From positions 1-64,000 of the forward strand of contig PLUB01000023.1 of assembly GCA_003164755.1 (NCBI GenBank): a stretch of DNA of 64,000 bases, read 5' to 3'. Under the pieces are notes generated by a model that was not told the origin of the DNA, did not search any database, and was given only the letters and a program-made list of their open reading frames with translations. The position numbers and the translations under genes were made by a program. This document shows positions 14,913-37,724 of the stretch, piece by piece. Position 1 is the stretch's first letter. Each line of letters opens with the position of its first letter. The stretch is from Methanosarcina sp. Its GTDB lineage: Archaea > Halobacteriota > Methanosarcinia > Methanosarcinales > Methanosarcinaceae.

Positions 14913-14933
14913 AATCTAACTTTCCTCTGTGGA

Positions 14934-15203
14934 TTAGACAATTGCGCTGTTCCAGAAAGGGTTGGCGAAGATAAGAATCATCGAGACCACGAAACAATAA
15001 ATAGACAAGGACTCGATCATAGCCAGGCCCACAAATAGAGTCCGAGTGATGGTCGCGGAAGCGTCGGGTTGTTGTGCCAATGAACTCAGCGCCGTCGCGA
15101 CAGCTCGCCCTTCGCTAATGGCTGGTCCAATGACTCCGATGCTGATAGTGATGCCGGAAGTGACAATTGATGCCACTGCGATTGTAGTCATATAAGTATC
15201 CAT
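14934..15203 (-). CDS. atpE: FO c subunit, Na+-type ring
   Basis: Rotor ring proteolipid, 89 residues, a hairpin of two helices with the polar loop SSLAQQPDAS. The outer helix has IESLSIY, giving the ion-binding E64 with S65 and Y69, the ES...Y pattern of Na+-translocating rings. Helix 1 has ISEGRAV, with a second carboxylate E31 at the position that is Gln in Ilyobacter-type Na+ rings; two carboxylates are described for N-ATPases. Na+ as coupling ion is an inference from these residues. Confidence 0.94.
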   Translation of the reverse strand: MDTYMTTIAVASIVTSGITISIGVIGPAISEGRAVATALSSLAQQPDASATITRTLFVGLAMIESLSIYCFVVSMILIFANPFWNSAIV

Positions 15204-15235
15204 AGTGTTTCCTTCTATTGATATAATTTCAATTT

Positions 15236-15925
15236 TTATTCTCCAATTTCAGGCTTTGCCTTGTGGGTGCGCGTGGCAGCAGCAATGTAGACTGTGGCCA
15301 AGATGCTGAAGATGTACGCTTGCACCATTCCAGTGAGCAGACCGAGAGCAGTCATAAAAATCGGGAAGAAAAATGGCGTAATGGTCAACAAAATGGCAAT
15401 AATCATCGTCCCACTCATCATATTACCAAACAGACGGATCGCCAGAGCCAGCGTGCGGGAGATTTCGCTGATGATATTAAAAGGTAACATGATCAATGTC
15501 GGCTCCGTGTATGACCTAAGGTATTCACCAACCCCCTGCTCTTCTATACCAAAGATCGGCACAGCCACAAATACACTTATCGCGAGCGCCGCAGTGGTTG
15601 ATAACGATCCTGTTGGAGGTTCATAGTCGGGGATAATAGTGCATAAGCTGGCCACAGCGATGGACAGGAATAGTGTGCCAAGAAAGCCAAGATATTTTCG
15701 TGGCCGACTTAACCCCACTTGCTCAATTTGAGTCAAAATGGTCGTGACAATGATTTCCAGGAAATTCTGCCAAATAGAACGATTCAGACCACTGGAAAGT
15801 TTGCTTGTAATTATTTTTGAACTGACTATCATTATGAGCATCAATCCCCATGTGTACATAATCGTGGCGTTGAGTTTGATAAAACCGTACTGCCAAAAAA
15901 TCAGCTCATCAGGACTAAGTCGCAT
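15236..15925 (-). CDS. atpB: FO a subunit
   Basis: Stator channel subunit, 229 residues, five to six membrane helices. The segment SEISRTLALAIRLFGNMMSG contains the essential Arg (R164, aligning with R210 of E. coli a). The last helix has GMVQAYIFSILATVYIAAA, the usual Q-A-Y-I-F signature. The frame overlaps the preceding atpR by 11 nt. Full length and all key residues are present. Confidence 0.94.
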   Translation of the reverse strand: MRLSPDELIFWQYGFIKLNATIMYTWGLMLIMIVSSKIITSKLSSGLNRSIWQNFLEIIVTTILTQIEQVGLSRPRKYLGFLGTLFLSIAVASLCTIIPDYEPPTGSLSTTAALAISVFVAVPIFGIEEQGVGEYLRSYTEPTLIMLPFNIISEISRTLALAIRLFGNMMSGTMIIAILLTITPFFFPIFMTALGLLTGMVQAYIFSILATVYIAAATRTHKAKPEIGE

Positions 15926-16229
15926 GATTTGCCTCCTTTGCCAATTGATTCGATTCTTCCTCTGGCAGTCTGATGAGTTTCATTACAATACAGCGCACAA
16001 TGAAGAACCCAAATAAGCACATCAACACCCGATCCCAATGGCCACCTGAGGCAAAATAAAATCCAGTTACTACAATTGTAATCCGCAGCATTAGGCTGCC
16101 TATGAACTGAAGTGCCGGTCTTTTGGATGAAGGTCCCTCCTGAACAGTCCACCAAAGGCCGGCGAAGAAAATTGCTCCGAACAAAAAGCCTTCTAACAGA
16201 GCCGAAACTAAATTCAAAGTTTCATTCAT
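15915..16229 (-). CDS. atpR: N-ATPase accessory membrane protein AtpR
   Basis: 104 residues, three predicted membrane helices (ALLEGFLFGAIFFAGLWWTV; LQFIGSLMLRITIVVTGFYF; VLMCLFGFFIVRCIVMKLI). Small proteins of this type sit between AtpQ and subunit a in N-ATPase operons and are one of their defining marks. They are proposed to help assemble the c ring. Gene overlaps both neighbours by 8-11 nt, so translation is probably coupled. Confidence 0.88.
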   Translation of the reverse strand: MNETLNLVSALLEGFLFGAIFFAGLWWTVQEGPSSKRPALQFIGSLMLRITIVVTGFYFASGGHWDRVLMCLFGFFIVRCIVMKLIRLPEEESNQLAKEANHAT

Positions 16230-16560
16230 TGTTATCCTCCTGTTCCGGTTGCATTTTATGATATTCCTTGGTCACCCAATGCCATGCATTAAAGCACCCT
16301 ATGATCAGACCGATAAGTAGCATCGTAAGCGTCCAGGAGAAGCTCACTGGATAGTGCTTGTCCAACCATAGACCGACTACTGCACCAAGAAGGGTTGGAA
16401 TAGTCACAGACCAACCGATAAGCCCCATCATGCCCAAACCAAGCCAAATAGTTCGCGTCACGTTACGTTGCGCCCTGAGTTTGCGTTCAGCTTTTGTTCC
16501 AACTTGATTGGCTAGGGTTTGTTTATCCCTCGATTCTTTCACTTTCAGCTCGTCAACCAT
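16222..16560 (-). CDS. atpQ: N-ATPase AtpQ (AtpI-like) membrane protein
   Basis: 112 residues with a basic N-terminal tail (about 38 residues) and two membrane helices (MGLIGWSVTIPTLLGAVVGL; WTLTMLLIGLIIGCFNAWHW). This is the AtpI-type small protein of F-ATPase operons, likely a c-ring assembly factor or cation carrier. The gene overlaps atpC by 8 nt and atpR by 8 nt. Confidence 0.88.
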   Translation of the reverse strand: MVDELKVKESRDKQTLANQVGTKAERKLRAQRNVTRTIWLGLGMMGLIGWSVTIPTLLGAVVGLWLDKHYPVSFSWTLTMLLIGLIIGCFNAWHWVTKEYHKMQPEQEDNNE

Positions 16561-16957
16561 TATGAAACTCCACTAAGCGACTTACAAGCTCGCTTTCTAA
16601 TTTTGCCATCACTGAACGTATTTTTTCCTCGCTCTTATCTAGGGTCAAAAACTCTCTCTCCACCGCTTCCCTCAATTGGCTCAAGTTTGTTCCAACAATG
16701 GCGTTGCGAACTGAAACCAGCACTTGCTGACCGGTCTTGATCAGAACACCTTCATCGACAGCCACATAAACCTCACCTTCGGCTTCTGTTTCATAGATTA
16801 AAATACCAGGTTCTAAAGCCATGACACAATCGAGTCGTTGTGGAAGGAGCCCAAATGACCCTTCTAGAGCCTCTGAAACTATTCGTGATACGCCTTTCTT
16901 TTCGGCGAATATCTGGAATGGTAGAATAATTTTAAGATTCATCAATATTGAGCTCAC
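16553..16957 (-). CDS. atpC: F1 ATPase epsilon subunit
   Basis: 134 residues. The beta-sandwich N-terminal domain begins LKIILPFQIF and includes EGSFGLLPQRLDCVMALEPG, the family signature around 'G.fgiLP.H'. The C-terminal helical part (about residues 90-130) is charged. A GTG start at 16957 is used; it follows GGGTAGATC and lies 3 nt after the stop of the beta remnant, while an ATG five codons in has no better site. This is the first intact gene of the operon. Confidence 0.9.
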   Translation of the reverse strand: MSSILMNLKIILPFQIFAEKKGVSRIVSEALEGSFGLLPQRLDCVMALEPGILIYETEAEGEVYVAVDEGVLIKTGQQVLVSVRNAIVGTNLSQLREAVEREFLTLDKSEEKIRSVMAKLESELVSRLVEFHNG

Positions 16958-16960
16958 GAT

Positions 16961-17062
16961 CTACCCAGCTAGATTTTTTTTGGCTATTGCTTCATCAATC
17001 ATTCCGATTATAAGATATCCTCTGCAGGTTAGTCTTTGAATTCATCGCACAGTATTACTACC
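16961..17062 (-). pseudogene. atpD: C-terminal remnant of the F1 ATPase beta subunit
   Basis: Directly upstream of atpC, where N-ATPase operons carry the catalytic beta subunit, only the last ~35 codons remain. They read VVILCDEFKD-stop-PAEDIL, then after a frameshift IIGMIDEAIAKKNLAG and a stop at 16961. This matches the conserved beta C-terminus 'DEFKDxPE..fYmiGtIdEA'. Sequence upstream of 17062 has no similarity to beta: no Walker A (GGAGVGKT), no DELSEED region. Over 440 residues are missing and the leftover piece is itself broken. Confidence 0.85.
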
Positions 17063-17247
17063 TGATCCGAGCAAAGAATGGGGGAAAAAATCATAATCAC
17101 TATTTAATAAACTGTATACACTAACATATATATACATATATACGCCTTTATATATCAGTATACTTATTTATCATTTTTATGTTAAATCAAAATGAATATG
17201 CACTATTTAGCAGTAACATTGTGATACACTAAAAACGTGACTAGATA
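17063..17247. other. AT-rich region upstream of the truncated ATPase operon
   Basis: Contains several TATA-like runs (TATATATACATATATA around 17130-17145, TTTATATATCAG around 17150). Any of these could serve as a promoter for the remaining operon. No coding sequence. Confidence 0.35.
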
Positions 17248-17478
17248 TTGCAGGTACCAAATGTGTTTAAAAATATACGAAAAATTTTATCTTTAATGAT
17301 ATGTTTTTTGATTTTAGCAAGTATTCCAATAGCTTTGTGGTCTGAATCAATAAACTACAACACCAACTCCTACACTAACTCCCATCTACACCAAACCCGC
17401 TCCAACGTCAAAGCAAAAAAGATCCAAACAACGTTGAGAAATTATATTTACTTAAAACTATTAACAATCTTTTTATAG
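17248..17478 (+). CDS. Possible small secreted peptide, or gene fragment
   Basis: A TTG-started frame whose first 30 residues look like a signal peptide (basic KNIRK, then LSLMICFLILASIPIALWS). An Asn/Thr/Ser-rich tail follows. No clear ribosome binding site precedes it. Its last 24 codons lie in a repeated segment also found at 56211-56287, so the C-terminus is not native. I regard it as the 5' end of a broken secreted-protein gene. Confidence 0.3.
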   Translation: MQVPNVFKNIRKILSLMICFLILASIPIALWSESINYNTNSYTNSHLHQTRSNVKAKKIQTTLRNYIYLKLLTIFL

Positions 17479-17482
17479 TCCA
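17404..17482. repeat. 75-bp repeat shared with the region beside tRNA-CAT
   Basis: GTCAAAGCAAAAAAGATCCA followed by AACAACGTTGAGAAATTATA and ACTATTAACAATCTTTTTAT matches 56211-56287 at most positions. The second copy abuts the 3' end of the tRNA gene at 56285. Confidence 0.55.
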
Positions 17483-17521
17483 TTTCAAAATATTAACTCG
17501 ATTTTGAGGCCAGTGTCCGAC

Positions 17522-17657
17522 TTTCTGCAGCTGTATAGAAAAATTCCATCGATTTTTTCGACATGACAGCAGCTTAAAAATTAATCTGGCTTTCAATGAA
17601 TAATAGTGGGCAAATGGGAAAACAAATCTACAACTATGTACATCTCAGAATATCGGA
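17522..17657 (+). repeat. Mobile short repeat (GATGTACA family), copy 1
   Basis: CTGCAGCTGTATAGA at the left end, AGCAGCTTAAAAATTAATCTGG and TTTCAATGAATAATAGTGGG inside, and ATGTACATCTCAGAATATCGG at the right. The ends are imperfect inverted repeats. Related copies: 22075-22205 and 28105-28235 (inverted), 36735-36890, 56686-57030. Confidence 0.65.
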
Positions 17658-18004
17658 TGAATATTAAAAACAGGTTTTAAGCTACGAATATATTCCAAAT
17701 GGTTTGTATAAGAACTCTATTTTTTTGTACTATAAATGTATTATGTATAATATTATCTTGTTAAAGTCAGTTATAGGATTAGGGCATATCTTGACACCGG
17801 AAATTGACACCGCAAATCAGTAAGGATATAATTAGATTAGTAACAGACGGAACTAAAGAATTATGCAATATTTCATCAAAATTACTCCTGAATTACTTAA
17901 CAAAATTTAATCGAGATAGAAATCAAGCGCAAATCTGTTGATTAATAAATATAGAAACTATAAAATATTCTCAATCAAAACAAATCACAAAATAGTTTAG
18001 GAGA

Positions 18005-22797: not shown

Positions 22798-23056
22798 CTC
22801 CTGCTAACCTTAGCTATGTTAAGAGGTATGCAGTTCAGTTCCCCATGCGCTGGGTAATGTTGATTGTTTTTGAGGGTTCAAGCTTTTGTAGAAAGATAAC
22901 CATACTAAGACCACTTAAAGATGTTAATATCAATAGCTGTCATTATTTTTCCCACTCTCTCATAAATTATCCAAATATTCTATTGTGATGGAACATGAAA
23001 AGCAAATTCTTAAAAATTTTATAATTAATACTTAATGGTAATTGGGGGGATATATT

Positions 23057-23998
23057 ATGGAGACTCAAATAATATTAGTTACTGGTGGAGCAGGTTTCAT
23101 AGGTACAAATCTCGTCAATGAATTAGAAACTAGAGGTCACGAAGTAATCGCAGCTGATATCTATAACACTAGACGTGAGAATTATATTAGGGCTGATGTC
23201 AGAAATTATAGACAGCTTGAACGAATTTTAGAGCAATCAAAATTCAATTACGTATACCATTTAGCTGCTGAATATGGTAGATGGAATGGAGAGGATTACT
23301 ATGAAAATCTCTGGCAGACTAATATGATAGGTACCAAAAATATGATTCGCCTTCAAGAAAAACTGAAATTTCGCATGATTTTCTATTCAAGCGCCGAGGT
23401 GTATGGTGATTATGAGGGTGTCATGACAGAAGATGTAATGAAAAAAAATCCCATTAAAGATACCTATCAGATGAATGATTACGCTATCACTAAATGGGCT
23501 GGAGAACTCATGTGCATGAATTCTGCAAAGATGTTCGGGACAGAAACTGTTCGGGTTCGTCCTGTAAACTGTTACGGCCCCCATGAGCATTACACACCAT
23601 ATAGAGGTTTTATTCCCAAATTTATCTACCTTGCTCTTCATAATAAACAATATACTGTTTTTAAAGCTCATAAAAGGATAATTGACTTTGTTGAAGATTC
23701 TTGTCACACCTGGGCAAATATTATTGATAATTTTATCCCCGGAGAGGTCTACAATGTAGCTGGAAGGTCTGAATGGGAAAAAGATATTAAAGAATATTCA
23801 GATCTGGTGTTGAAATTCGTGGGCGTGGACGATTCACTAGTCACTTATGAAGAAGCAGAAGCTTTTACAACAAAAGTAAAAACTATTGATTGTTCAAAAG
23901 CAAGCAAAGATCTTAAACATAATCCTAAAGTATCTCCAGAAGATGGAATACGTAGGACAGTAGATTGGATGAAAAAACACTATCTTGTGGGTGAATAA
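23057..23998 (+). CDS. NAD-dependent epimerase/dehydratase (extended SDR), first
   Basis: Nucleotide-sugar modifying enzyme of 313 residues. The NAD-binding motif TGGAGFIG lies near the start, YHLAAEYGRW gives the usual 'LAA' loop, SSAEVYG supplies the Ser, and YAITKWAGE the catalytic Tyr-Lys pair. The ATG at 23057 is chosen because GGGGGGAT precedes it; the frame is open a few codons further upstream to a TTG inside that site. It overlaps the ribosome binding site of the next SDR gene, so these two and the glycosyltransferase at 25010 form one operon. The substrate (for example a UDP- or dTDP-sugar) cannot be fixed from sequence alone. Confidence 0.88.
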   Translation: METQIILVTGGAGFIGTNLVNELETRGHEVIAADIYNTRRENYIRADVRNYRQLERILEQSKFNYVYHLAAEYGRWNGEDYYENLWQTNMIGTKNMIRLQEKLKFRMIFYSSAEVYGDYEGVMTEDVMKKNPIKDTYQMNDYAITKWAGELMCMNSAKMFGTETVRVRPVNCYGPHEHYTPYRGFIPKFIYLALHNKQYTVFKAHKRIIDFVEDSCHTWANIIDNFIPGEVYNVAGRSEWEKDIKEYSDLVLKFVGVDDSLVTYEEAEAFTTKVKTIDCSKASKDLKHNPKVSPEDGIRRTVDWMKKHYLVGE

Positions 23999-23999
23999 A

Positions 24000-24998
24000 T
24001 TGAGAGATTATACAAATGATTATGAAGAGAAAAATATACTAGTTACTGGTGGAGCTGGTGCAATTGGTGGAAACCTCTGCCGTAAACTCTCTGAGATGAA
24101 TGCACAAAAAGTTATCATATTAGATAATCTCTCATCTTCTTATGAATGGAATATACCGAAGGCAGATAATATTGTTTTTGTTAAAGGGAGTATTTTGAAT
24201 GATGAAATGCTCAAGCGTGTCTTCAAGGAAAAGCCTGATTATGTCTTCCATCTAGCTGCTCATTTTGCAAACCAGAATTCAGTAGATAATCCTGAAAGAG
24301 ATCTAATGATCAATGGTATCGGGATTCTTAAAGTTCTCCAGTACTCTCAACTTGTTGAATTAAAGCGTTTTGTTTATTCTTCATCAGGATGCGGAGTATA
24401 TGGGCTTGATTCTAAAATGCCATTTGAAGAACATGATATTTCAATCAGTCTTCATACACCTTACCAGGTAACTAAACTTCTTGGTGAACTTTATACCAAT
24501 TACTTCCATAATCTTTATGCCATGCCAATTACAAACGCCCGTTTCTTCAATTCCTATGGACCAGGGGAGGTCCCGGGAAAATATCGGAATGTAATCCCCA
24601 ACTTTTTCTATTGGGCGATGAAAGGAATCCCGCTCCCAATTACCGGTAAAGGCACTGAAACAAGAGACTGGACCTATGTGGGTGATATTGTCAATGGGTT
24701 AGTTGCTATGGGTGTAGAAGAAAAAGCTATCGGTGAAGCTTTCAATCTTGGATCTGGTACTGATCACCAGGTCATTGAAATGGCAACTATTGTCAACGAG
24801 TTGACGAATAATGAAGCTGCGGTCACTTTCAAAGAACGCAGAGATTGGGATGTAAAGACGAAGCTTCTGTCCTGTGTGGATAAAGCAAATAGAGTACTTG
24901 GTTACAAACCTCAGATGAAATTTGAAGATGGTTTAAAGAATGTCCACTCCTGGTTTAAAGAAAACTGGGTAAATATTGATAAGAGTGCCGAATTCTGA
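24000..24998 (+). CDS. NAD-dependent epimerase/dehydratase (extended SDR), second
   Basis: 332 residues, similar to UDP-glucose 4-epimerase and dTDP-glucose dehydratase families. NAD motif TGGAGAIGGN, LAAHFANQNSVDNPERD (typical of these enzymes), SSSGCGVYG, catalytic YQVTKLLGE, and the sugar-binding RFFNSYGPGE and GTETRDWTYVGD segments. The TTG at 24000 is preferred: GGGTGA overlapping the stop of the previous gene lies 5-6 nt upstream. The frame is open back to 23985, with GTG and TTG alternatives. Likely acts in sequence with the first SDR to make an activated sugar for the cluster. Confidence 0.88.
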   Translation: MRDYTNDYEEKNILVTGGAGAIGGNLCRKLSEMNAQKVIILDNLSSSYEWNIPKADNIVFVKGSILNDEMLKRVFKEKPDYVFHLAAHFANQNSVDNPERDLMINGIGILKVLQYSQLVELKRFVYSSSGCGVYGLDSKMPFEEHDISISLHTPYQVTKLLGELYTNYFHNLYAMPITNARFFNSYGPGEVPGKYRNVIPNFFYWAMKGIPLPITGKGTETRDWTYVGDIVNGLVAMGVEEKAIGEAFNLGSGTDHQVIEMATIVNELTNNEAAVTFKERRDWDVKTKLLSCVDKANRVLGYKPQMKFEDGLKNVHSWFKENWVNIDKSAEF

Positions 24999-25009
24999 CG
25001 TGATGCTTA

Positions 25010-26221
25010 ATGAAAATCTTACTACTGCAGGAAACAGATTGGATTAAAAGAGGGCCTCATCAACAGCATCATCTAATGGATAGAATGGCTTTGAGGGGTC
25101 ATCAAATAAGAGTAATTGACTATGAGTATCTGTGGAAAGAGGATCATAAAGATAGAAAAATATTCACTGGTCGGAAGGAAATCAAAGGAGCTTATAAGAT
25201 ATTCAAGGAAGCAGACATTACTCTCATCAGACCAGGGATGATTAAACTGCCTATACTTGATATGGCATCTATCCTCTATTTTCACGAAAAAGAAATTAAA
25301 AGACAAATTATGGAGTTCAAACCGGAAGTCATAATATCATTTGGCATTCTCAATGCGTATCTTGGTATGAAACAGGCTAAAAAACACAATATTCCTTTTG
25401 TGTACTACCTCATAGATCATTTGCATACACTACTTCCAAGCAAACTTAAAAAGAATACTGCAAAACAATTTGAAAAACAGACAATTAGAGGCTCAGATAG
25501 GATATTTGTCATTAATCAAGGATTGAAAGACTATGCTGTGGAAATGGACGGAGACGTCAATAAGATCTCAGTAATACCTGCAGGCGTAGATTTTGAGAAA
25601 TTCAATCCGCAAACTGACGGTTCATCAATCAGAGAAAAATATGGGATTAAAAAAAATGATATCCTATTATTCTTCATGGGATGGATATATGATTTCTCTG
25701 GGATGAAAGAGGTCGCAGAAAGTCTTTCTAGCACTGACAACGAAAATATTAAACTAATGATAGTTGGAGAAGGGGACCTCTACAAACTTTTAAGCAAAAT
25801 GAAATCTGAAAACAATCTTAATAAAAAATTGATACTAACAGGAAAAATCCCATTTGAAGAAGTTCCCAAACATATTGCCTCCGCTGATATATGCCTTTTG
25901 CCAGCTTATAAAAACGAAATTATGATGAATATAGTCCCGATTAAAATATACGAATATATGGCCATGGGAAAACCTGTAATAGCCACAAATCTTCCTGGAC
26001 TAAAAAAGGAATTTGGTAATAACAATGGGGTCGTATATATCGAGAATCCTGAGCAGACTTTGGAAAAAGCAATTTATCTCTCTGAAAATTATATGATAAA
26101 GTCTGAAGGTAATAAAGCTAGTTTGTGCTCGCGGGATCAAGATTGGAATAAAATAACGAATGAATTTGAAAGTATATTAAAAAATTTTCTCAAAAAAAAT
26201 GTATCCGTGATTGGAAATTAA
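25010..26221 (+). CDS. GT4-family glycosyltransferase, first
   Basis: 403-residue GT-B fold enzyme, retaining. The N-terminal domain has GPHQQHHLMDRMALRGHQ (acceptor side). IPAGVDFEKFNP lies at the domain junction. The donor-site segment is VPIKIYEYMAMGKPVIATNLPG with the conserved E-x7-E-like spacing. GTGATG lies before the ATG, 12 nt after the second SDR. Expected to add a sugar to a lipid- or protein-linked glycan. No membrane helix. Confidence 0.87.
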   Translation: MKILLLQETDWIKRGPHQQHHLMDRMALRGHQIRVIDYEYLWKEDHKDRKIFTGRKEIKGAYKIFKEADITLIRPGMIKLPILDMASILYFHEKEIKRQIMEFKPEVIISFGILNAYLGMKQAKKHNIPFVYYLIDHLHTLLPSKLKKNTAKQFEKQTIRGSDRIFVINQGLKDYAVEMDGDVNKISVIPAGVDFEKFNPQTDGSSIREKYGIKKNDILLFFMGWIYDFSGMKEVAESLSSTDNENIKLMIVGEGDLYKLLSKMKSENNLNKKLILTGKIPFEEVPKHIASADICLLPAYKNEIMMNIVPIKIYEYMAMGKPVIATNLPGLKKEFGNNNGVVYIENPEQTLEKAIYLSENYMIKSEGNKASLCSRDQDWNKITNEFESILKNFLKKNVSVIGN

Positions 26222-26869
26222 ATGAATAAATAAACGAAGATCAGAATTTGTAAGCTGAAGAAACAAGCATACATTAGTTGTAAGTCACCAGTTGATAAAT
26301 TGTAAATTAAGGAATTTTGATAAATCTTTGATTTTCAAGAATCATTTATGAGCATATGAAGAAATTTAGGGGTTTATTGAAGCACTATATATTTATCTAC
26401 GCTGTTAAGCTAAGAACTCGATAATATTAACTCTAATGGTCTAAAAAATAAGTTTTACTACAATGTATATATCTAAATTCAATTTTGTACTTCAAATCCT
26501 AAGTCCTAATTTAATAATAATTTATCTCGGAAGTTACTTGGAGTTTCATTTGCTACTACTTTGCTTTATCCAGGAAGTATTTTATCATTAACTAAGTTGG
26601 TGAGATGCTTAATTACGAAGCCTACTGAGTAAAAAAATAATATGAACCATTGTTCAAAAGAAAAACGGACAAAATAGCTTAATTATATATGAAATCCGAA
26701 AATTTAAGCTTGTTTATTTTAGTAGATATCTAAACAAGGTTTAATTATTCATTCTGGAACGAAGTCAATAAACATATCTGATATGATACATAGTTCAAAA
26801 TAGATATAAGTGTTCATATAGATTAGTAATATTATTTCAATTACAAAAGTGTTGATGGTCTGATGATCT
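26222..26869. other. Intergenic region within the polysaccharide cluster
   Basis: 650 bp without genes. Contains palindromic repeat copy 5 (26311-26382). An A/T-rich promoter-like region lies before the next glycosyltransferase (about 26790-26840), so that gene is probably transcribed separately. Confidence 0.4.
26311..26382. repeat. ~90-bp palindromic repeat, copy 5
   Basis: GGAATTTTGATAAATCTTTGATTTTC ... AATCATTTATGAGCATATG ... AAGAAATTTAGGGGTTTATTGAAG. Closely matches the right half of the copies at 30951 and 50812. It lies 90 bp downstream of the glycosyltransferase stop. Confidence 0.7.
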
Positions 26870-28006
26870 ATGAGAATATGTGTGATTACTTCCGCAAAGT
26901 TACCTCCTGAGGAAGGAATTGGTAATTATATTTACAATATGTCAAAGGAATTTATTCGAAAGGGACATAATGTAACTGTTATTACGCGTGGAAGCTTAAA
27001 TAAGACACAGAAAGACCATTTTGAAGATATAGAATTATACAAAGTTCCTTTTGCGTTAGTTTACCCATTTCATGTACATATTCATGGATTTTTTGTGAAT
27101 GAGTTATTGAAATCGATTGAGCACAATTTTGATGTGATCCATATACATACACCTTTGCCTCCTACAATAAATTCTACGGTTCCGATAGTATTAACAATTC
27201 ATTCTTCTATGATTGATGCTGAAAAAGTTATAGATATAAAAGACTTGTTTTCTCTTGCCACTAAATTTCAAGCAAAATATATTAGTTATCCAATTGAAAG
27301 AAAATTGCTGAAAAATGCAGATCTTATTACCACTGTCTCGAAAAAAGTGGCAATAGATCTTAAAGAATATGGGTTGGATTATAACAATATTAGAATCATA
27401 TATAATGGGGTCGATGAAGATTCGTTTTCACCAGTTGATAAGAAGATTGGGGAGAAATATATTCTGTATACGGGGAGAATTAGTTATGGTAAAGGTCTGG
27501 TTGAGTTAATTGAATGCGCAAAAGAAGTTCTCATAGCTCATAGTGACATACACTTTATACTGGCTGGAAATGGTCCTTTAATTAATGAGCTAAAAGTAAA
27601 AGTTAAAGATCTAAATCTTGAAGATCGTATCAAATTTCTAGGGCATGTAGGTAGAAATGATATAATAAAGCTATATCAAAATGCTCATATGTTCGTTTTT
27701 CCTTCACATTATGAAGGATTGCCTGGTTCACTTCTCGAAGCAATGTCCTGTAAACTTCCGATTGTAGCCACCAAAGTACCTGGAAATATCGAACTTATAG
27801 AGCATTGTGTGAATGGAATTCTGGTTCCCCCTAAAAATGCAAGTGCATTGAAGGAAGCTATATTAACACTTCTTGATGATGCTGATATGAGAACTAAGCT
27901 CGGTGATAAAGCGAGAGATACTATAATTAGGAATGGTTTTACTTGGAAAAAAATATCAGATAACATCTTACGATGTTATCAGTCCATACAGAAAAATGGT
28001 AATTGA
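26870..28006 (+). CDS. GT4-family glycosyltransferase, second
   Basis: 378 residues, typical GT4. N-terminal LPPEEGIGNYIYNMSKEFIR, DVIHIHTPLP, and IIYNGVDEDSF at the hinge. YILYTGRISYGKGLVELIEC starts the donor domain, and HYEGLPGSLLEAMSCKLPIV with VPGNIELI carries the two donor-binding glutamates. The first helix pattern resembles PimA/WaaG relatives. The ATG start lacks a strong ribosome binding site; a weak GGTCTGATGA precedes it. Likely works with the first GT on the same glycan. Confidence 0.9.
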   Translation: MRICVITSAKLPPEEGIGNYIYNMSKEFIRKGHNVTVITRGSLNKTQKDHFEDIELYKVPFALVYPFHVHIHGFFVNELLKSIEHNFDVIHIHTPLPPTINSTVPIVLTIHSSMIDAEKVIDIKDLFSLATKFQAKYISYPIERKLLKNADLITTVSKKVAIDLKEYGLDYNNIRIIYNGVDEDSFSPVDKKIGEKYILYTGRISYGKGLVELIECAKEVLIAHSDIHFILAGNGPLINELKVKVKDLNLEDRIKFLGHVGRNDIIKLYQNAHMFVFPSHYEGLPGSLLEAMSCKLPIVATKVPGNIELIEHCVNGILVPPKNASALKEAILTLLDDADMRTKLGDKARDTIIRNGFTWKKISDNILRCYQSIQKNGN

Positions 28007-28104
28007 CATATAAACATATTTGATGATGATGTCACCTTCAATGTGAAGCGTATATCCTAAATTGTAGAGAAACTTTGAATTTCAAATTAATAAACGGAAT
28101 TCAG

Positions 28105-28235
28105 CAGGTATACACAGATCTATAATTTGTTGTTTATCTGCCAACTGTTATTCATTGAGAGTTAGGTTGATTTTTAAGTTACTGTAATATTGGGAAAATA
28201 GATTGCATTCTTGTGTATATCTATGGAACGTGTGA
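28105..28235 (-). repeat. Mobile short repeat (GATGTACA family), copy 3
   Basis: Inverted copy: GGTATACACAGATCTATAATT at the left; GTTATTCATTGAGAGTTAGG and TTGATTTTTAAGTTACTGTAA inside; TTGTGTATATCTATGGAACG at the right. It sits between two cluster genes, close to the start of the acyltransferase. Confidence 0.65.
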
Positions 28236-28272
28236 ATAAATCACAACCCTATATGATTTTGGAGAGACAATA

Positions 28273-28824
28273 TTGAACTCAAAAATAAGTGCATATCTAG
28301 AATCCATTGGAAAGTATTTCTGTCTAATAATTTACTATTCATTTGCTCAGCATCTCCCTGTTTCCGATGAGCTGCAATCCTTAAAATTATCAAAACCAAT
28401 TAGAGGATTTTTAGCTCGTAGAATTTTTGATGAGTGTGGGGAGGATATAAATCTTGAGAAAGGAGCATACATTGCGGATGGAAGGTTTATTAGAGTCGGA
28501 AATAGGTCTGGCATTGGTATAAACGCTTTTGTCCAAAGGCATGTGCATATAGGAAATGATGTCATGATGGGAAAAGATGTTATTATAATGACAACTAGTC
28601 ATGAAATTTCAGACAAATCAATTCCTATGAGATACCAAGGTGGTAAAGAAGTTGCCCCTGTAGTTATAGGCGATGATGTTTGGATTGGGAGTAGAGTAAT
28701 AATACTTCCAGGCGTAAAGATTGGAAATGGTTCCGTAATTGGTGCTGGTGCAGTTGTTACTAAAGACGTCGAGCCATATTCCGTGGTTGGAGGTGTTCCT
28801 GCGAAACTAATAAGAAGGAGATAA
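28273..28824 (+). CDS. Hexapeptide-repeat acyltransferase (WbbJ/CatB type)
   Basis: 183-residue left-handed beta-helix enzyme that transfers acetyl or another acyl group to a sugar. After an N-terminal helical part (about residues 1-45), hexapeptide turns run from [20 protein letters not shown] to [20 protein letters not shown]. The catalytic His lies in TTSHEISD, and the usual end [10 protein letters not shown] is present. A TTG start is used with GGAGAG 6 nt upstream. It would decorate the glycan made by this cluster. Confidence 0.88.
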
Positions 28825-29055
28825 GAAGGAGATAATACTTGTAAATAAAGGAAATCTATTATAGCCGTGGGGAAAAATCATCAACAGCTCTCTTTACTAA
28901 GATTAATTGAACAAATATTGTTGTGTATTTTCTTTAACTTTAGGTTATATCAAATGGTTTTCTATTTTCCCATCAGTTGGTAATCAAAAGTATTTATTCA
29001 TCAAAATAATATCTGATATTTATATAACTTTCTATGAAGTATCTTTGTGATCTCT

Positions 29056-30858
29056 ATGTTTGGGCTGAATATTATATTCAAATTGATTTGTATACTTTGT
29101 TTTATGCTTAGTCTATTTTCGATTCTGATGGCTTATTTTAATCCAGCTCATGGTTATGAATTATCGTTGTATAACAGTACACCTCCAATAGTATGGATTA
29201 GCTTGATATTCAGTATATTTGGAGGAATTTCTATTATTATGTACATTGTACATAGGAATCAATCAGACTATTATAATTATTGCTTTTTAGGACTTTTGAT
29301 ACTATTATTTGATCGAATTATCCTACTTTATATTCCTTATATTAGAGGTTATTATTCATGGAGAGGAGATAATATCTCTCATTTTGGAATTCTAAAAGAG
29401 ATTTTAACATTTGGGCATATACCCTCTGATCTCGTATATCCGATAACTCATATATTATTGTCAGAGCTTGTATATATCACGGGACTTTCCAATGAGATTA
29501 TAGCAAACCATAGTACTGCTTTAATTTCAGTTTTTTACGTAATATCTATATATTTACTGGCAACTTCTTCCTTGGTTACAAAAAAAGAACAAATTTTAGC
29601 TGTTACTTCAATTGCTGGTGTATTTTTTAGTGGATACGATGTCTATCTTATGCCAAATGGATGGTCTCTGTTATATTTGCCTATTGTGTTATTTTTTTAT
29701 TTTAAATCACTAACAAAAAAATACTCTATGAAATATGCAATCTTATTTCTAATTACATTAATATTGTATCCCTTTTTCCATCCACTATCCACAGTGATAT
29801 TAATATTAATGCTAGTTGTTATTGGATTGATGGAATTTTTGATTCCTATATTTGAAAATAAAAAGATTTTATTAATTAAGTCTTCTTTCCCATTGACACC
29901 TATCTTACTTGAAACAGCTATATTTTTTCCTTGGATACTCTCATTCCAAAAGTTTAATCTAAATATAAAAATGATGTATTATTCAATTATTGCAGGTTCA
30001 AGCCCAAATGTAATTTCTTCGATGAGTAGCACAGTTGGTAAATTAAGTTTGACTAAATTAGAATTTCTAAGATTATTATTTAGACTTATGGGTCAGCATT
30101 TTATTTTTTTAATATTTTTTTTCCTTAGCTTTGTATTATTATTAAAATATCCCAATTATAGAAAAAACAATAAAAATTTGATAATCTTACTGAGTATCAC
30201 ATTATTTATTGGCCTAATGTATGTATTTTATTTGTTTAATATTCTTCCAGGTCTACAAGCAATGGGTTCAGATAGGTTGCAAGCATATTTAGTAATTTTC
30301 ACTCCAATATTCGCTGGTTTTGTGCTATCATACATTATTACCAGAAAAATGATAATTCATAAGTTTAATCTTGCACCAATGGTTTGTGTGATTATAATTC
30401 TGATTGCTTCAGTAGTATCTATCCTCAATTTGTACCCATCACCTTATGTTATGCAACCCAACCCATCAATTACACAAATGGATATGAATGGGGCTGAGTG
30501 GCTCTTAAATTTCAAAAATTCTGCTACCAATAGTGTGTATATAATGAGTCCAGTATATAGATTTTTAGCAGGTTCTTTGGGCCATGTTGAAGCTGGGAAG
30601 TTGTTTGGATCTTCTTATAAAGAGGCAAATATTACGGATCATTTTAATTATACGATATCCAAAAATCTTGGGAACTCCTATACTCAGAATGAATATTTCA
30701 TGATGACGATGTTTGACAAAATAGTTTATGAAACTGTCTGGAATGTTGTTGGAAGATTTCATCATAATGATTTTAAAGAACTAGAGGGAGATACTTCCGT
30801 TGATAGATTATACTCGAATGGTGATACCAGTGTATATTATATACATAGTTTATTATAA
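29056..30858 (+). CDS. Large multispanning membrane protein, GT-C-like
   Basis: 600 residues with about 12 membrane helices, then a C-terminal extracellular domain of roughly 130 residues (from about NLYPSPYVMQPNPS). An early loop has RGYYSWRGDNISHFGILKEI; an acidic D-x-x-(S)H loop between the first helices is typical of GT-C enzymes such as oligosaccharyl and mannosyltransferases. I cannot place it in a named family, so polymerase, ligase or lipid-sugar transferase are all possible. ATG at 29056 is chosen: GTGATC lies 3 nt before it, the same spacing as at MC1. The GTG of that site opens the frame three codons earlier. Confidence 0.75.
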   Translation: MFGLNIIFKLICILCFMLSLFSILMAYFNPAHGYELSLYNSTPPIVWISLIFSIFGGISIIMYIVHRNQSDYYNYCFLGLLILLFDRIILLYIPYIRGYYSWRGDNISHFGILKEILTFGHIPSDLVYPITHILLSELVYITGLSNEIIANHSTALISVFYVISIYLLATSSLVTKKEQILAVTSIAGVFFSGYDVYLMPNGWSLLYLPIVLFFYFKSLTKKYSMKYAILFLITLILYPFFHPLSTVILILMLVVIGLMEFLIPIFENKKILLIKSSFPLTPILLETAIFFPWILSFQKFNLNIKMMYYSIIAGSSPNVISSMSSTVGKLSLTKLEFLRLLFRLMGQHFIFLIFFFLSFVLLLKYPNYRKNNKNLIILLSITLFIGLMYVFYLFNILPGLQAMGSDRLQAYLVIFTPIFAGFVLSYIITRKMIIHKFNLAPMVCVIIILIASVVSILNLYPSPYVMQPNPSITQMDMNGAEWLLNFKNSATNSVYIMSPVYRFLAGSLGHVEAGKLFGSSYKEANITDHFNYTISKNLGNSYTQNEYFMMTMFDKIVYETVWNVVGRFHHNDFKELEGDTSVDRLYSNGDTSVYYIHSLL

Positions 30859-30950
30859 TTTTTAATAAATTCTTAAAATTAATTCTGAAAATTCATGCGA
30901 TTTTTTTAAATGCCTTTGATTTATACATGTATCATTTCAAGAGTAGATTT

Positions 30951-31040
30951 TGGGGATTTCGATAAACCTCTGATTTTCACGAGCTATTAATATATCATTT
31001 GTGTGCATATAAGGAAATTTAGGGGTTTATGAAATTCTAC
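30951..31040. repeat. ~90-bp palindromic repeat, copy 6
   Basis: GGGGATTTCGATAAACCTCTGATTTTC then ACGAGCTATTAATATATC ... GTGCATATAAGGAAATTTAGGGGTTTATGAAATTC. It starts about 90 bp downstream of the GT-C-like gene, the same distance as copy 5 after its gene. Confidence 0.75.
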
Positions 31041-31571
31041 TAATCTTCAACAAATCATAGTGAATAAATAGACAAACAATTTTACATATGTGAAATGTCG
31101 GATAGCTCTCATTTTTGGAAAAATGTGTAGCTAGTCTTATATTTCTATTTTCAACAACTCATGAATATGTCCCGATCTGTTAGGCTGAGATACGTATCTA
31201 TTACGTAAAAAGCGAAAATAGTTTGTAAATTTTCAACGAGTTATACGCATTCAAGATTTGTTCACACTAATATACCGTGCCAAATTATGAGATAATGATA
31301 TCAAAGGAATCTGATTCAAATAAATACATTAAGCAAGTGCCATGGTATAACATTTAGACAGGGAACACTTGCCAATATTTAACAAATTAAAAGACTGTTT
31401 ATATCGAAAGCAATGCCATGTTGCTCCCATAGCTATTGCCTATATACATAAAATCGATTCATATACTTTGTTGTTCATATTTGATAAGGACTCTGTTGTT
31501 TACAACTTCCAGTAACTTATCCTCGCTGTTGCATTTGTAATTCTTTGTTTAAGCATTTATTTTGGAAAATC
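31041..31571. other. AT-rich region without genes
   Basis: No gene signal. A segment near 31160-31200 (TTTCAACAACTCATG) matches 5440-5460. Otherwise featureless. Confidence 0.35.
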
Positions 31572-31685
31572 TTAATGCCCTTGATCATAAAAATAAACAA
31601 TATTAGCAAGAACACCAAATAGACCACAAATAACAATAATACTTATTAACAAATCAAACCAGGATGTAGCAGTAGCAGTATCCAT
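31572..31685 (-). CDS. 37-residue single-span membrane protein
   Basis: ATG frame MDTATATSWFDLLISIIVIC-GLFGVLANIVYFYDQGH and stop. It is one clear membrane helix with a polar N-terminus and a short charged C-terminus. GTGAGGT lies 8 nt before the ATG, among the best ribosome binding sites in the window, and a T/A-rich stretch upstream can supply a promoter. No family recognised. The clean frame in a region full of broken genes argues that it is real. Confidence 0.55.
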   Translation of the reverse strand: MDTATATSWFDLLISIIVICGLFGVLANIVYFYDQGH

Positions 31686-32079
31686 ATTAAATATACCTCA
31701 CATACGTCATATAACATTAAAATATATAACTTTTATTAATTTATCAGTAGTACAGCTTTGCTATGGTCTTACTAGTTATTGCTTATTTGTTTACACTTAT
31801 TTCTCAGTAGTTCATAAAAAAATCATCCAAACATTTTAGTTCCATTTTTTTGTAATGCCTCTATAAAATTCAATATTGTAGAGTTTTGAAGTAGAAATTA
31901 TGCCTAGTTTTCGTGAATCACAGTCGGTATTTTTCAATAATACAACATTTTATTTATGAGTGTGTACTTTTCTCAAAATTCATTCAGTTTTTCTCCTACT
32001 ACTTTAATATTTTTGAATGATCTTCTTGACTTTAACATCTTCATTTTCTTATCCAACGATATTCAGTTGGGCTTCTTTA

Positions 32080-32870
32080 TGGTGTAGCTGGAGGATAAAA
32101 TAATGTTTACAAACAATGCTTATTTTTTTGATAAAATTTCTATGTTTTTTTAATTTATACCATGTGGCTCAGTCCAGTGGAAGAACGATCTTTGTTTCTA
32201 TATCTCTATCAAAATCAAATAATGATTTTAGGAAAGAGTACATATTTTATGTAATACCTAAATCATACCCATAGAACTCTTCGTTTTCAGTATAACATTC
32301 TCAAATGTTGATTTAGGCTTTTGAATCACTTGTAAATTTAATTGGGTTTTGGTCCTCGATTGCCCACCATCTTGATTTATTTGAATCCACAAAAGAAATT
32401 ACTATCATCACATGTGATGCTTGGATCAATGGAGTTTAGGATCTCTTTTGGATTGAAGAGATCTAATTCATACCTGAGCACTTCATTTGTTTTTTTGATC
32501 TAGAGTATAATTTTTGACTCGGAATAAAATAAATTGAATTTCTCATTGACAAATTTGATTGCATTTTGTGTTTGCTGAGTACGATAATCACCATTATCTC
32601 TTGTCATTGGTTCTGAAAGTGTTTCCCTTAAATTAGAAAGTTGTTCTTCTGTTAAAGGAGATTTTATTCCTTTACAAATTTACATCCAATGTTGAGAAAA
32701 TCTTCCTCATCAGTACACTTTATCCAAGGATAAATCTTTGATATGTGGAGGAAAGTTTTCTATAACTTTAGCTGGATCAAATAATATTTAACAATAATAG
32801 GCTTGAAGTCTCAATAGGTTCGTTTTTTTCGCAGGAACAAATTTTCGCTTTAGCAATAAATATTATGCAT
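32080..32870 (-). mobile_element. IS630-type transposase remnant (32 kb)
   Basis: Minus-strand pieces in several frames. MIVISFVDSNKSRWWAIEDQ and PIKFTSDSKA correspond to the DDE core region seen also at 50.9 kb. An N-terminal helix-turn-helix part (segments around 32640-32870) matches the copy at 57.3 kb. Many stops. No terminal repeats identified. Confidence 0.55.
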
Positions 32871-33179
32871 AGTAAAATGTCTCAGCTCATAACTCATTTA
32901 ATATATAATAATATCTATATATTTTGTACAAAGAAGTAACTAAATATGTGAGTTACGAGTTTTATATTTTTCAAAACTCTCAAACTTATCAGTCATGCAG
33001 CTCGAAATGTGCAAATAATGTTGATTATGTTCAATTATTTCGAGATGTTCAATTTATTGTATATGATGGTGGTAACTAGATGTTCTATATTCAACCAGAT
33101 AATGCCAACCCATATGATTCAGATAACGGGTAAAATATAATTCACAATACGATTAATGCTGCTCTATTTAGGTCCATCT

Positions 33180-33300
33180 CTTTTTATATACTTCATCAGC
33201 TGCCTTTAGGCCTTCATTCGAAGATTGTTTTAATATCTTCTGGGATCGTAAAAATTGAGCATTAATTTTATTTTCATTGACTGTAGTCAATCCAAAACTC
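33180..33300 (-). repeat. Fragment related to the HTH remnant at 45 kb
   Basis: GATTGTTTTAATATCTTCTGGGATCG with TAAAAATTGAGCATTAATTT aligns with 45205-45250 (TTTAATATCTTCTGGGACCG). Both lie at the start side of a decayed DNA-binding gene. The stretch 32871-33447 contains nothing else, apart from the promoter region of the lipoprotein gene. Confidence 0.4.
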
Positions 33301-33447
33301 AGAGAATTATAAAAAGTTTTTTTGAGGGATAAAATCAAGTATATGGAATCCCTTTATATTAATTATACTCTATATCAATAAGGGTCTAATGCTGTTGTTT
33401 TTCAATTCAACCGCGTAAGCACTCGTATATTACGGAGAATATAACAT

Positions 33448-35148
33448 ATGTATTATAAAATTGGAATCGTTGTCATAACATTATTTCTTCTTGTTTCTGG
33501 CTGTATGTCAGGCGCATTACCAGAAGAAAGATCCCACGAAAATAAAAGTGAAAATGGTACTCTTCTAAACACATCAAACCGACTTTCAGTATCGATACCT
33601 GACCCATATGGATATAATCAGTTCAATCATCCTGATGTCTATTACAATACATCTGGTGTATTTGGTCATAAATGGTGGATGTTTATTACTCCCTTTTCAG
33701 ATTCGAATGGTACCTCTAAAAATGCATGTTTGTACTATTCTGATGATGGACTACTTTGGAATGTACCCTATGGAGTGACAAATCCTATCGGAAAGCCAAT
33801 AGTATCTGATTATAGCTCAAATGCTTATGGGTCTTACCCTGATATCGTATATGATCCTATTACTCGAAAACTTATGTGCTACTATGTAATTGGGGATGTA
33901 GTTAGTAACGTAACTATAGAAGATCCGAAAGTTAGAACATATGATGGTATTACTGTTTCACCAGAAATGAATGTCACTGCTCATGGGATATCACCAGCCG
34001 TTCTTTATGATAATTCCACAGGAACTTATTACATGTGGATTGTTGATATCGATCCAAAACCTCATGTTATATACAGATACACTTCCACTGATGGTGTGCA
34101 TTTTAGTGATAAACAAGTAGTTGGTCAATCAAGCGAATATCAACCCTTGCTTATGAATACGATGAATTATCCCGGAAACTCAACAATATACGCATTATTT
34201 AGATTCGACGAACCTAAAGATAATTTATATCTTGCGACTGCAAAAAACTATACGGATAATTTCACGGTTCAAGGTTTGCCACTGCTACAAATCAGTGATC
34301 CATCATGTGCGATGTATAAGGATATTCGATTAGATCGCAGTGCAGGTGTGTTTAGTGATGATGGAAACTTCTTGAAACTGTGGATCCCTGCGAAAGATAC
34401 TAACGGAATTTGGACATTGTTTTATACACAAGCAACTCAGGAAAATGGTGTATGGACAGTTGATAAAGGAGTGAATAAATATCCTACACATGGGGTAATT
34501 TACTGGAAAGGGCTAAATTGGTATGTGATTAAAGGTAGATCAGATCCTATTAATAATCACTGGAATAATACTGGTGCATGGATAGATGACAAAGATAGGA
34601 TGCACTTAACAATTGTAAAGAACGGAGATATATGGAACTGTACGATGTTGAATAGTCAACATAAATATCATTATGGTACTTTCACCTGGAAGGTAGCTTC
34701 ACCTATTTATACATTTGATAATAAAAGCGTGGTCGGATTTTTCACTTATTTAAACGATAATAATGAATTAGACATTGAAGCTTCAACATGGGGTAAAACA
34801 AATGGAGATCAATTGACGTATACTGTACAGCCTACTAAAATTAAAGGCAATGCTCATGCGTATGCTGTCCCAGACACTAACGGTACAAACACAACATATA
34901 CTCTTGAATGGAAACCAAGCTATGTAAGATTTACATCTGTGCAGGAAAACGGAAAAATTATAGCAGACTTTAATTATACAAATGTTTCTGGAATCCCTCA
35001 GGATCCTGCAGATCTCTTAATGAATTTATGGCTGTGGGATTGGAATCAGCCTCCAACTAATGGGAAAAACATTGAACTTATAGTTAGTGATTTCACAATT
35101 ACTAATGGTTTAAATGAAATTGACTCAAGTAAAAATATGAAAAAATGA
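33448..35148 (+). CDS. Lipoprotein with beta-propeller glycosidase-like and GH16-like domains
   Basis: Predicted surface carbohydrate-active enzyme, 566 residues. The N-terminus (IGIVVITLFLLVSGC) is a lipobox with C19 for lipid attachment, then a polar linker with N-glycosylation sequons. Residues about 45-375 show repeated blades (NHPDVYYN, GSYPDIVYDPITRKLMCYY, ISPAVLYDNSTGTYYMW) as in five-bladed GH43/GH32-type propellers. Residues about 405-555 look GH16-like: ELDIEASTWG with catalytic-type E440, D442, E444, then TYTLEWKPSYVRFTS and LLMNLWLWDWNQPP, which match the C-terminal strands of lichenase/laminarinase. Both domains in one archaeal lipoprotein are unusual. It follows the polysaccharide cluster, so trimming or release of the cell's own matrix is a reasonable guess; feeding on foreign glycans is the alternative. 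Confidence 0.75.
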   Translation: MYYKIGIVVITLFLLVSGCMSGALPEERSHENKSENGTLLNTSNRLSVSIPDPYGYNQFNHPDVYYNTSGVFGHKWWMFITPFSDSNGTSKNACLYYSDDGLLWNVPYGVTNPIGKPIVSDYSSNAYGSYPDIVYDPITRKLMCYYVIGDVVSNVTIEDPKVRTYDGITVSPEMNVTAHGISPAVLYDNSTGTYYMWIVDIDPKPHVIYRYTSTDGVHFSDKQVVGQSSEYQPLLMNTMNYPGNSTIYALFRFDEPKDNLYLATAKNYTDNFTVQGLPLLQISDPSCAMYKDIRLDRSAGVFSDDGNFLKLWIPAKDTNGIWTLFYTQATQENGVWTVDKGVNKYPTHGVIYWKGLNWYVIKGRSDPINNHWNNTGAWIDDKDRMHLTIVKNGDIWNCTMLNSQHKYHYGTFTWKVASPIYTFDNKSVVGFFTYLNDNNELDIEASTWGKTNGDQLTYTVQPTKIKGNAHAYAVPDTNGTNTTYTLEWKPSYVRFTSVQENGKIIADFNYTNVSGIPQDPADLLMNLWLWDWNQPPTNGKNIELIVSDFTITNGLNEIDSSKNMKK

Positions 35149-35741
35149 ATATGTAATGTACTATACAGGTAGCAGAATTCAGATTAAAGGATGGTGATTT
35201 CTATATCTAGAATATCACCAACTATTATAATTTTTTCCTTAATATTGGTATATATATTAACCAACTCCAAGAAGCTGAGAGTAAAAAGTAAGAACATACT
35301 TAATTGAATTGAAAAACAGAGGCATCAAGTACTTCTCTATCTAAATCTCGATAATTATGACAAATTCGGTGCACTTTTTTTTCATTCTTCAACTTATTAA
35401 TTTTTCAATAGTTTTTCAGAAGTAACTACATACAATACTGGGTCACATAAGTACTGGATATGGATGAATTCAAGAGAACATATCTGGTTAATAAATAATA
35501 AAAAATTAAAGAGTATCCTGGATGAATAAGATGCTTATATAGGTTGGGGAAATTTCAGACAAAAAAAGGAGTCACAATGCACATTTTATGTTTCCATCGA
35601 GGTCTTTTTAAGGTCGGCTTCGCCAATAATTAAAAATAGAGTGTATTGGTTTGAAATAAAAAGCAAAATTCACTTGGTGGTATCAATAAATAGCATGCCC
35701 AATCCGATCATATAACTTTAATTTATATTAGATAATTTCTA
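35149..35741. other. Intergenic region
   Basis: No coding signal. AT-rich with a few short direct repeats. It lies between the lipoprotein gene and a dead IS. Confidence 0.35.
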
Positions 35742-36734
35742 AAAACTTCTATGCATTTGAGTATTGGGGAGTTTAAATTTCTTAACAATAATTTTTACTC
35801 ATGAAAACTCTTACTAATTTTGTCCTTAAAGAAGAATACGAAAGTCTTCAGTCAGTTGAAGACAAACGGGTTGAAATTGATTCTTTAATTGATTGAAAAT
35901 CTTTTCGTGTAATTTTGGAGTCCATGTATTTTAACGAAACACTTTTAGAAAGCAGACCTGAAACTGACTTAATCATTATGGTTTTAATACTTGTTTTGCA
36001 GCAATGACATGATTTCCCTAATTTTAACTTGAGAAACAAAGTATTGATTAATTTTTTTCAGGAAATTTCTTGTTTTTCCTTAGTACATACAAGACAATAC
36101 CAAGTCTGATCATTCAGAAAGAGAATTAGTTATAACTGCAAAGAAAAAGAAATATTGATACAGTTGCAAAATTAACTTGGTTGCCTTAGGTTAAAAATCA
36201 AAAAAAATAAACTGATTCAGGAAACTACTTTTATCTCTTCAGATCCGAGCACTCAAAAGTGGATAAATCTCAAGAGAATGAAACCAAAAAGAGAAGCAGG
36301 GACTGAACATTGGTAAAAATAGTTTTCAGTCACACTTCGATATATACTTCATAGCATAATAAACAGGAATTATGAGCTGATCAGAAGGTTCGAGGCAAAG
36401 ACTACATCATTTCATGATTTTCATATGGATTTATCAGAAAAAAATAAGGTAGTTTACAGGGACAAAGGATATTTTGGAGCAAAATCAAAAAATTATAATG
36501 CAACAATGAAAAGATCTTAAAAGAACATCCTACGGGAATGAGTGATGGATTAAGGAACAAGGAGATCAACTCTAAAAAACTAAAGTGGAACGAGTTTATG
36601 CAGTAACTAAAAAGATATTCAAAGCAGAATAGTTTTTGTCGCTAGTGTTCAAAGAGTGAATCTAAAGATGTTGTGTATAAATTTTGTTATAATCTCTATC
36701 AGTTGATGACATTAAAAATAGAAGGAGTATTTCA
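35742..36734 (+). mobile_element. Degenerate IS5-like element, copy at 36 kb (most complete)
   Basis: Best-preserved of the copies. Frames in order: EYESLQSVEDKRVEIDSLID (35830), RPETDLIIMVLILVLQQ (35945), INFFQEISCF (36050), then HTSIYTS to INRNYELIRRFEAKTTSFHD (36330-36410) and DLSEKNKVVYRDKGYFGAKS (36430). KEHPTGMSDGLRNKEINSKK (36520) and the C-terminal NLYQL (36695) complete it. The DDE-type YRDKGYFGAKSK region identifies the IS5 superfamily. Several stops make it inactive. Its 3' flank is interrupted by a different short repeat at 36735-36890. Confidence 0.75.
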
Positions 36735-36890
36735 ATGACCTTAATTTCCGCGGATGTACATAAGGATGCCATCTATTTTCTCGATATTATAGTAGCTTAA
36801 AAATAATCTAACTTTCAATGAGCAATAATGGAAAATAGGTGAACAAATTCTATATATTGTATATCTTTTAAATGTCGGAAGGATAGCGAA
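36735..36890 (+). repeat. Mobile short repeat (GATGTACA family), copy 4, inserted in an IS flank
   Basis: TTCCGCGGATGTACATAAGG at the left, AGTAGCTTAAAAATAATCTA and TTTCAATGAGCAATAATGG inside, ATTGTATATCTTTTAAATGT-CGGAA at the right. Sequence before it (TTGATGACATTAAAAATAGA) and after it (AGCTATCTTTAAAATCAA) is contiguous in the IS copy at 49440-49500. This copy is therefore an insertion. Confidence 0.7.
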
Positions 36891-37102
36891 GCTATCTTTA
36901 AAATCAAAGAATAATGAACCAGAACAGAAAAAACCCGATCAAATACAGAAATGAGCGAGAAAGATTTGACAGGATTCCTTTGAAGAAAAAAATAGAGATC
37001 AATCGGAATACCATGATACTAACTGAATGAGGGGATAAATCTGCAGATCCTCTACTGTGGAGGTCCTAATTGTAATAGAATCCGTATATTTCCTAAAGTA
37101 TT

Positions 37103-37525
37103 TTGCTGATGAAATCGAAACTTTGGAGAGAAATTTTGAATTATTCTTATGGAAAGCATGAAAGTCAGATGGAAATTCGAATGTTTTTTCCGTGTATTGG
37201 GAAAATTGGTGCAATAATCCTAGTTGCTGAAATTGCTAATTTCAAGAATTTTTCTTCAGGAAATAATAATGGCTTGGAACCGATCCAAATGTATACTAAA
37301 TATGTGTATAAATTCTACAGTGGCATTCACAAAGGGAGGATCAAGGGCTACAAGTGGACTCTAACGCAGATTGCTAAGGCAGAAGCAAGAACGAAAAATA
37401 GCAAGCTAAGAGAGTTTTTTAACCGGAAGAAGAACTCAATTGGGAATGCAAAAGCAATTATTGCACTGCAAAGGAAAATTGCCACAATAATATGGTATCT
37501 TATTACAAATGATGAGCTGTACTAA
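37103..37525 (+). pseudogene. IS110-type transposase C-terminal remnant
   Basis: The frame contains FFPCIGKIGAIILVAEIANF (the Tnp20-type helix-hairpin-helix-like region of IS110/IS116/IS902), then KWTLTQIAKAEARTKNSKLR and EFFNRKKNSIGNAKAIIALQ-RKIATIIWYLITNDE, the usual C-terminus. The N-terminal DEDD catalytic domain is missing and the middle is shortened. Upstream 36891-37102 contains the IS5 3' flank shared with 49480-49600. Confidence 0.75.
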
Positions 37526-37724
37526 AATTAAACAGGTTACAATAGGGAAAAATCCAAAAGAGTAACATTGTTAATACTGAAATCTTTTGGTTGATGAAAG
37601 TAGAATAATTGGTTGAGTAACATGATTGTGGCAAATGGGGGTAGTAAAATATGTGATGTTTGTAACCTTATGCACTTTCATGCCGAACTAACTAAAGTTT
37701 TTGCTGGAATGAATTTTTTCAATT

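Follow-up and report, generated by a model that had tools for sequence, protein, structure and literature searches.

What does a methanogen do with a surface protein that joins a beta-propeller to a GH16 fold, and which of the two domains is still an enzyme? The question is raised by one gene in the 64,000-nucleotide stretch of Methanosarcina sp. contig PLUB01000023.1 analyzed here (the window). The original prediction described an archaeal lipoprotein in which a beta-propeller glycosidase-like domain is followed by a GH16-like domain, and it proposed a role in modifying the cell's matrix. The gene and its export signals are as follows.

33448..35148, + strand: lipoprotein gene, 566 aa, propeller plus GH16 (ATG start, single open frame)
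33448..33504, + strand: predicted signal peptide with the archaeal lipobox VSGC (V16-S17-G18-C19), read from the translation
33505..33591, + strand: tether, residues 20 to 48, with three sequons (N32, N36, and N41), read from the translation

The open reading frame and the lipobox cysteine of the original prediction both hold up: the frame stays open for 566 aa from an ATG that has GGAG ahead of it at positions 33434 to 33437, and V16-S17-G18-C19 is present in the translation. The protein would be exported, lipid anchored through C19, and shown on the cell surface. It contains 18 N-glycosylation sequons compared with 7.5 expected from shuffling (0 of 2000 shuffles reached 18), a number that fits an exposed protein. 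ORF-poor stretches flank the gene (window positions 30859 to 33447 and 35149 to 37102), and the segment at 37103 to 37525 contains a weak IS110-type Transposase_20 match (E value, 0.0055, below the cutoff) that is probably a transposase remnant. An Rfam scan of positions 30800 to 37700 returned no RNA family around the gene, and the gene had no match in a library of defense systems.

The C-terminal half of the protein carries the following two features.

34468..35106, + strand: GH16 domain, residues 341 to 553 (PF00722, family alignment, and PDB profile search)
34765..34779, + strand: ELDIE motif, E440/D442/E444, the predicted GH16 catalytic acids (sequence and alignment to GH16)

PF00722 matched residues 370 to 529 with 31.5 bits against a curated cutoff of 22 (E value, 1.5e-7), and a family profile built from 23 aligned related domains, that of the window included, found 16 PDB sequences at E values of ≤0.1, all of them GH16 beta-glucanases (best E value, 4.7e-10). 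The GH16-like domain that had been predicted is thereby borne out, as is the predicted ELDIE motif, which lines up at residues 440 to 444 with the EIDIE of 1mac/2ayh in the profile alignment. The likeness to the GH16 beta-glucanases known as lichenases (1mac, 2ayh, and 3wvj) takes in the extent of the domain, the ExDxE strand, and the YG..W, W-P-x-Y-V/I, and MNLW strands. In comparison, the family to which the window domain belongs has low identity to the lichenases, replaced subsite residues, and invariant residues of its own (D380, H386, and W448), and the window domain itself is fused to a propeller and lipid anchored. The substrate subsite residues of lichenases, which we take to be E63, R65, and W103, align with M, N, and N in the window protein; with these replaced, the substrate should differ from the classical beta-glucan, and it cannot be read off from the alignment. 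AF2 models made from the single sequence, without an alignment, had pLDDT values of 34.9 for the whole protein and 34.0 for the GH16 domain, too low for either model to be used.

This GH16 family is present in about 18 of the 31 Methanosarcina species, fragments counted, and consists mostly of small proteins of 230 to 290 aa. Of the 23 aligned domains, 15 have an intact ExDxE motif: that of the window and 14 others, among them its nearest relatives (L004, L005, and L006). Six of the eight degenerate domains fall in one supported clade that takes in both of the 911-aa proteins described below and has motifs such as ELNII, ASNVV, ALNLG, and ASTVG; the other two are the first copy in L028 (EIDIG) and the distant L020 (EMTIE). 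The supported acid-less Methanosarcina clade (L007, L008, L009, L010, L022, and L024) supplies candidates for GH16-derived carbohydrate-binding proteins.

The N-terminal half is occupied by a single domain.

33592..34467, + strand: beta-propeller of the 6n1a family, residues 49 to 340 (phmmer, family profile, and homologues)

That the domain is a propeller is supported by a profile of six propeller sequences, which matched PDB entry 6n1a over the whole domain at an E value of 5.5e-29; the propeller alone reached the same entry at 1.8e-4 (phmmer). The "glycosidase-like" part of the earlier description was not sustained, since the protein had no Pfam match to GH43, GH32, or any other glycosidase propeller and its only solved relative is 6n1a. 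A GH43, GH32, or GH62 propeller glycosidase was rejected as a candidate, with no Pfam match up to an E value of 10, and none of the Pfam propeller families was matched. After 6n1a, the next PDB matches of the propeller profile were antibody chains at E values of 0.05 or worse. The PDB names 6n1a only as "Carbohydrate-binding protein"; we take it to be the Flavonifractor plautii GalNAc deacetylase (P0DTR4), with active-site residues that we assume to be E64, H97, D100, and H252. The Flavonifractor plautii GalNAc deacetylase is described in the literature as an enzyme with a solved structure. Allowing for a 20-residue tag, the four assumed sites become E84, H117, D120, and H272 of the 6n1a chain, where the letters agree. 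The whole propeller of the window protein can be aligned with the 6n1a/6n1b protein, from which it differs in the absence of the conserved E, D, and H and in having GH16 in place of the bacterial C-terminal part.

The missing residues were located in a propeller alignment comprising 6n1a, L040 (from a Subdoligranulum plasmid), L034 and L035 (distant archaeal propeller relatives in polysaccharide loci), L019, L021, the 911-aa proteins, and the pieces of a broken gene on contig C63 of the source genome.

33718..33720, + strand: K91, replacing an invariant Glu (6n1a chain E84; propeller alignment)
33835..33837, + strand: Y130, replacing an invariant Asp (6n1a chain D120; propeller alignment)
34150..34152, + strand: L235, replacing an invariant His (6n1a chain H272; propeller alignment)

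Invariance across six or more propeller relatives was seen in 21 alignment columns. Eighteen of these are kept in the window protein, and the three lost are exactly the E, D, and H, a choice that a random loss of 3 out of 21 would make 1 time in 1330. These columns presumably correspond to the catalytic E64, D100, and H252, and all of the other propeller relatives retain them wherever the alignment covers these sites. H97, the fourth assumed active-site residue, is not conserved across the propeller family in this alignment. With all three conserved charged residues gone, the propeller is probably no longer an enzyme. Its reading frame contains no stops or frameshifts, and its dN/dS ratio is about 0.22 to 0.24 in comparisons with L003 and L002 that are pairwise and do not isolate the window lineage, values which suggest that the domain is still constrained and not simply decaying.

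The reading that we hold with moderate confidence is that of a live GH16 endo-glycanase carrying a dead propeller of the deacetylase family as a binding module. The GH16 domain would be a working retaining endo-glycanase or transglycosylase that cuts or rejoins surface polysaccharide, with one of E440 and E444 as the nucleophile and the other as the acid/base and with D442 assisting, following GH16 precedent. The propeller is proposed to descend from a family of metal-dependent amino-sugar deacetylases and, without its E, D, and H, would bind, but no longer deacetylate, an N-acetylhexosamine-containing glycan and keep the GH16 domain attached to its polymer. The likeliest polymer is an extracellular polysaccharide made by the cell itself, which may be methanochondroitin. 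What the sequences show is the identity of the two domains, the intact ELDIE motif, and the loss of the three conserved propeller residues; that the GH16 domain is active, that the propeller is inactive and serves in binding, and what the substrate would be are inferred.

The gene neighborhood bears on the substrate.

23042..30858, + strand: polysaccharide cluster, context only (2.6 kb upstream of the lipoprotein gene)

The cluster encodes two NAD-epimerases, two group 1 glycosyltransferases, a hexapeptide acetyltransferase, and a hydrophobic protein of 603 aa that matched no Pfam family. The gene had been placed after a polysaccharide biosynthesis cluster, and one does lie upstream on the same strand, although it ends 2.6 kb away. 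At other loci of the GH16 family, a family 2 glycosyltransferase adjoins the GH16-family genes in L048, L049, L052, L053, and L055 (checked with Pfam in L048, L049, and L052), and Acyl_transf_3 proteins are encoded nearby in L049, L051, and L055 by Pfam and in L053 and L054 as judged from resemblance only. Near the GH16 genes of L050 lie genes for a polysaccharide deacetylase and for a deacetylase-glycosyltransferase fusion. The fusion, a polysaccharide deacetylase joined to a family 2 glycosyltransferase (L050 positions 12568 to 14616) and near two GH16 genes, is a candidate exopolysaccharide synthase, and a similar ORF is found in L051 at positions 2300 to 3724.

Methanochondroitin is a polymer of GlcA-GalNAc-GalNAc (PMC12369344), and a propeller of GalNAc deacetylase ancestry fits its GalNAc content. 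Together, that content and the gene context of the GH16 family, with its membrane glycosyltransferases, acyltransferases, and polysaccharide deacetylases, lend modest support to matrix modification, which is a possible role for the window protein; methanochondroitin as the actual substrate is a tentative assignment. The known disaggregatase was rejected as an identity for the protein, which has no Pfam match to PF08480 or PF06848; PF08480 proteins are encoded by separate genes elsewhere in the source genome, and relatives at the genus level also carry this disaggregatase-associated family. The Methanosarcina disaggregatase is extracellular and thought to act on the matrix, as is proposed for the window protein, which differs from it in having no Disaggr domain.

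The same active GH16 domain and binding propeller could instead be directed at polysaccharide of foreign origin (for example, beta-glucans or galactans from plants or microbes) or at the polymers of neighboring cells, an arrangement that we consider unlikely. Most of the known GH16 enzymes act on beta-glucans and galactans, and the solved relatives closest to the window GH16 domain are lichenases, but the lichenase subsite residues are those that have been replaced. A close relative of the propeller (L031, 69% identical) comes from a Methanosarcina record titled fen_51, a plant-rich setting, whereas the genes of the family neighbor biosynthetic and not catabolic genes, and Methanosarcina are not known to grow on polysaccharides.

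Another reading, improbable in our judgment, has both domains noncatalytic, the protein being a structural or lectin-like surface component of the matrix. The existence of a whole sister clade of GH16 domains without the acids indicates that noncatalytic use of this domain occurs in the genus, and the loss of the conserved charged residues of the propeller would suit the same reading; the window protein, however, retains the complete ELDIE motif, as do L004, L005, and L006. That the propeller is still enzymatic with a shifted chemistry (as a glycosidase or esterase acting through other residues), making the protein bifunctional, is very unlikely, for although the domain is under purifying selection and keeps all of the remaining invariant residues, R210 included, all three of the invariant acidic or His residues have been lost and the domain matches no propeller family of glycosidases.

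For the preferred combination of a live GH16 domain and a binding propeller, a comparison comes from other Methanosarcina species. The propeller family is rare, occurring in 5 of the 31 species of the genus and in 5 of the 393 genomes sampled from the phylum, and its combination with GH16 was found in three species. Two other species encode the 911-aa proteins (L002/L048 and L003/L055), whose propeller is 65% identical to that of the window protein and whose GH16 domain belongs to the same family at 58 to 62% identity. These proteins differ in having an extra N-terminal domain and a linker of about 130 aa and in lacking a lipobox, and their active sites are the reverse of those in the window protein: the propeller E, D, and H are kept and the GH16 acids are lost (ALNLG and ASTVG).

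The two architectures also differ in where the domains meet: in the window protein no linker separates the propeller from the GH16 domain, whereas the 911-aa proteins have theirs in between. The match of L031 and of the broken C63 gene to the long protein stops where this linker ends. A single ancestral fusion common to both types was rejected for the GH16 domain when that of the window was forced to group with those of the 911-aa proteins (AU test, P = 0.0047, with the window row on a long branch). From these three observations the two joins look independent, which is the simpler reading, the long branch of the window GH16 row notwithstanding. A tblastn search upstream of the window gene found no remnant of the N-terminal domain. 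An origin from phage or plasmid was also rejected: the GH16 domain had no match among phage sequences, no relative was found on viral contigs, and the one plasmid relative of the propeller is from a gut bacterium.

A second propeller gene of the source genome lies on G000 contig C63 at positions 16886 to 17872 (L023; L056 positions 8591 to 10479) and is closer to the 911-aa type. It keeps the E, D, and H but is read in several frames, as a broken gene or an assembly error; it has no GH16 domain, and no GH16 match was found on contig C63. In another archaeal family (L034 positions 13 to 2571), an N terminus that by eye resembles ferredoxin/F420-hydrogenase runs into a propeller with intact E, D, and H within a polysaccharide locus.

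A broader scheme, which we regard as doubtful, would have the two domains joined at least twice in Methanosarcina, with each join keeping exactly one active site, using the dead partner as a polymer binder, and acting on methanochondroitin. The window protein would then be a deacetylase-turned-lectin with a live GH16 domain, and the 911-aa proteins would be a GH16-turned-lectin with a live deacetylase. If true, the mirrored losses would offer a clear example of enzymatic domains that were converted to binding modules.

The genes for methanochondroitin biosynthesis are unknown, and its enzymatic breakdown has been characterized only for the M. mazei disaggregatase (reviewed in PMC12369344). Members of the GH16 family, spread over about 18 of 31 Methanosarcina species and sometimes fused to a propeller, are named candidates for work on this polymer, and the residue pattern allows cutting, possibly deacetylating, and purely binding members to be predicted in a simple way. 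Elsewhere in the window, ORFs on the − strand at positions 11401 to 16957 resemble by eye a bacterial-type F-ATPase operon, a kind of operon that occurs in some Methanosarcina.
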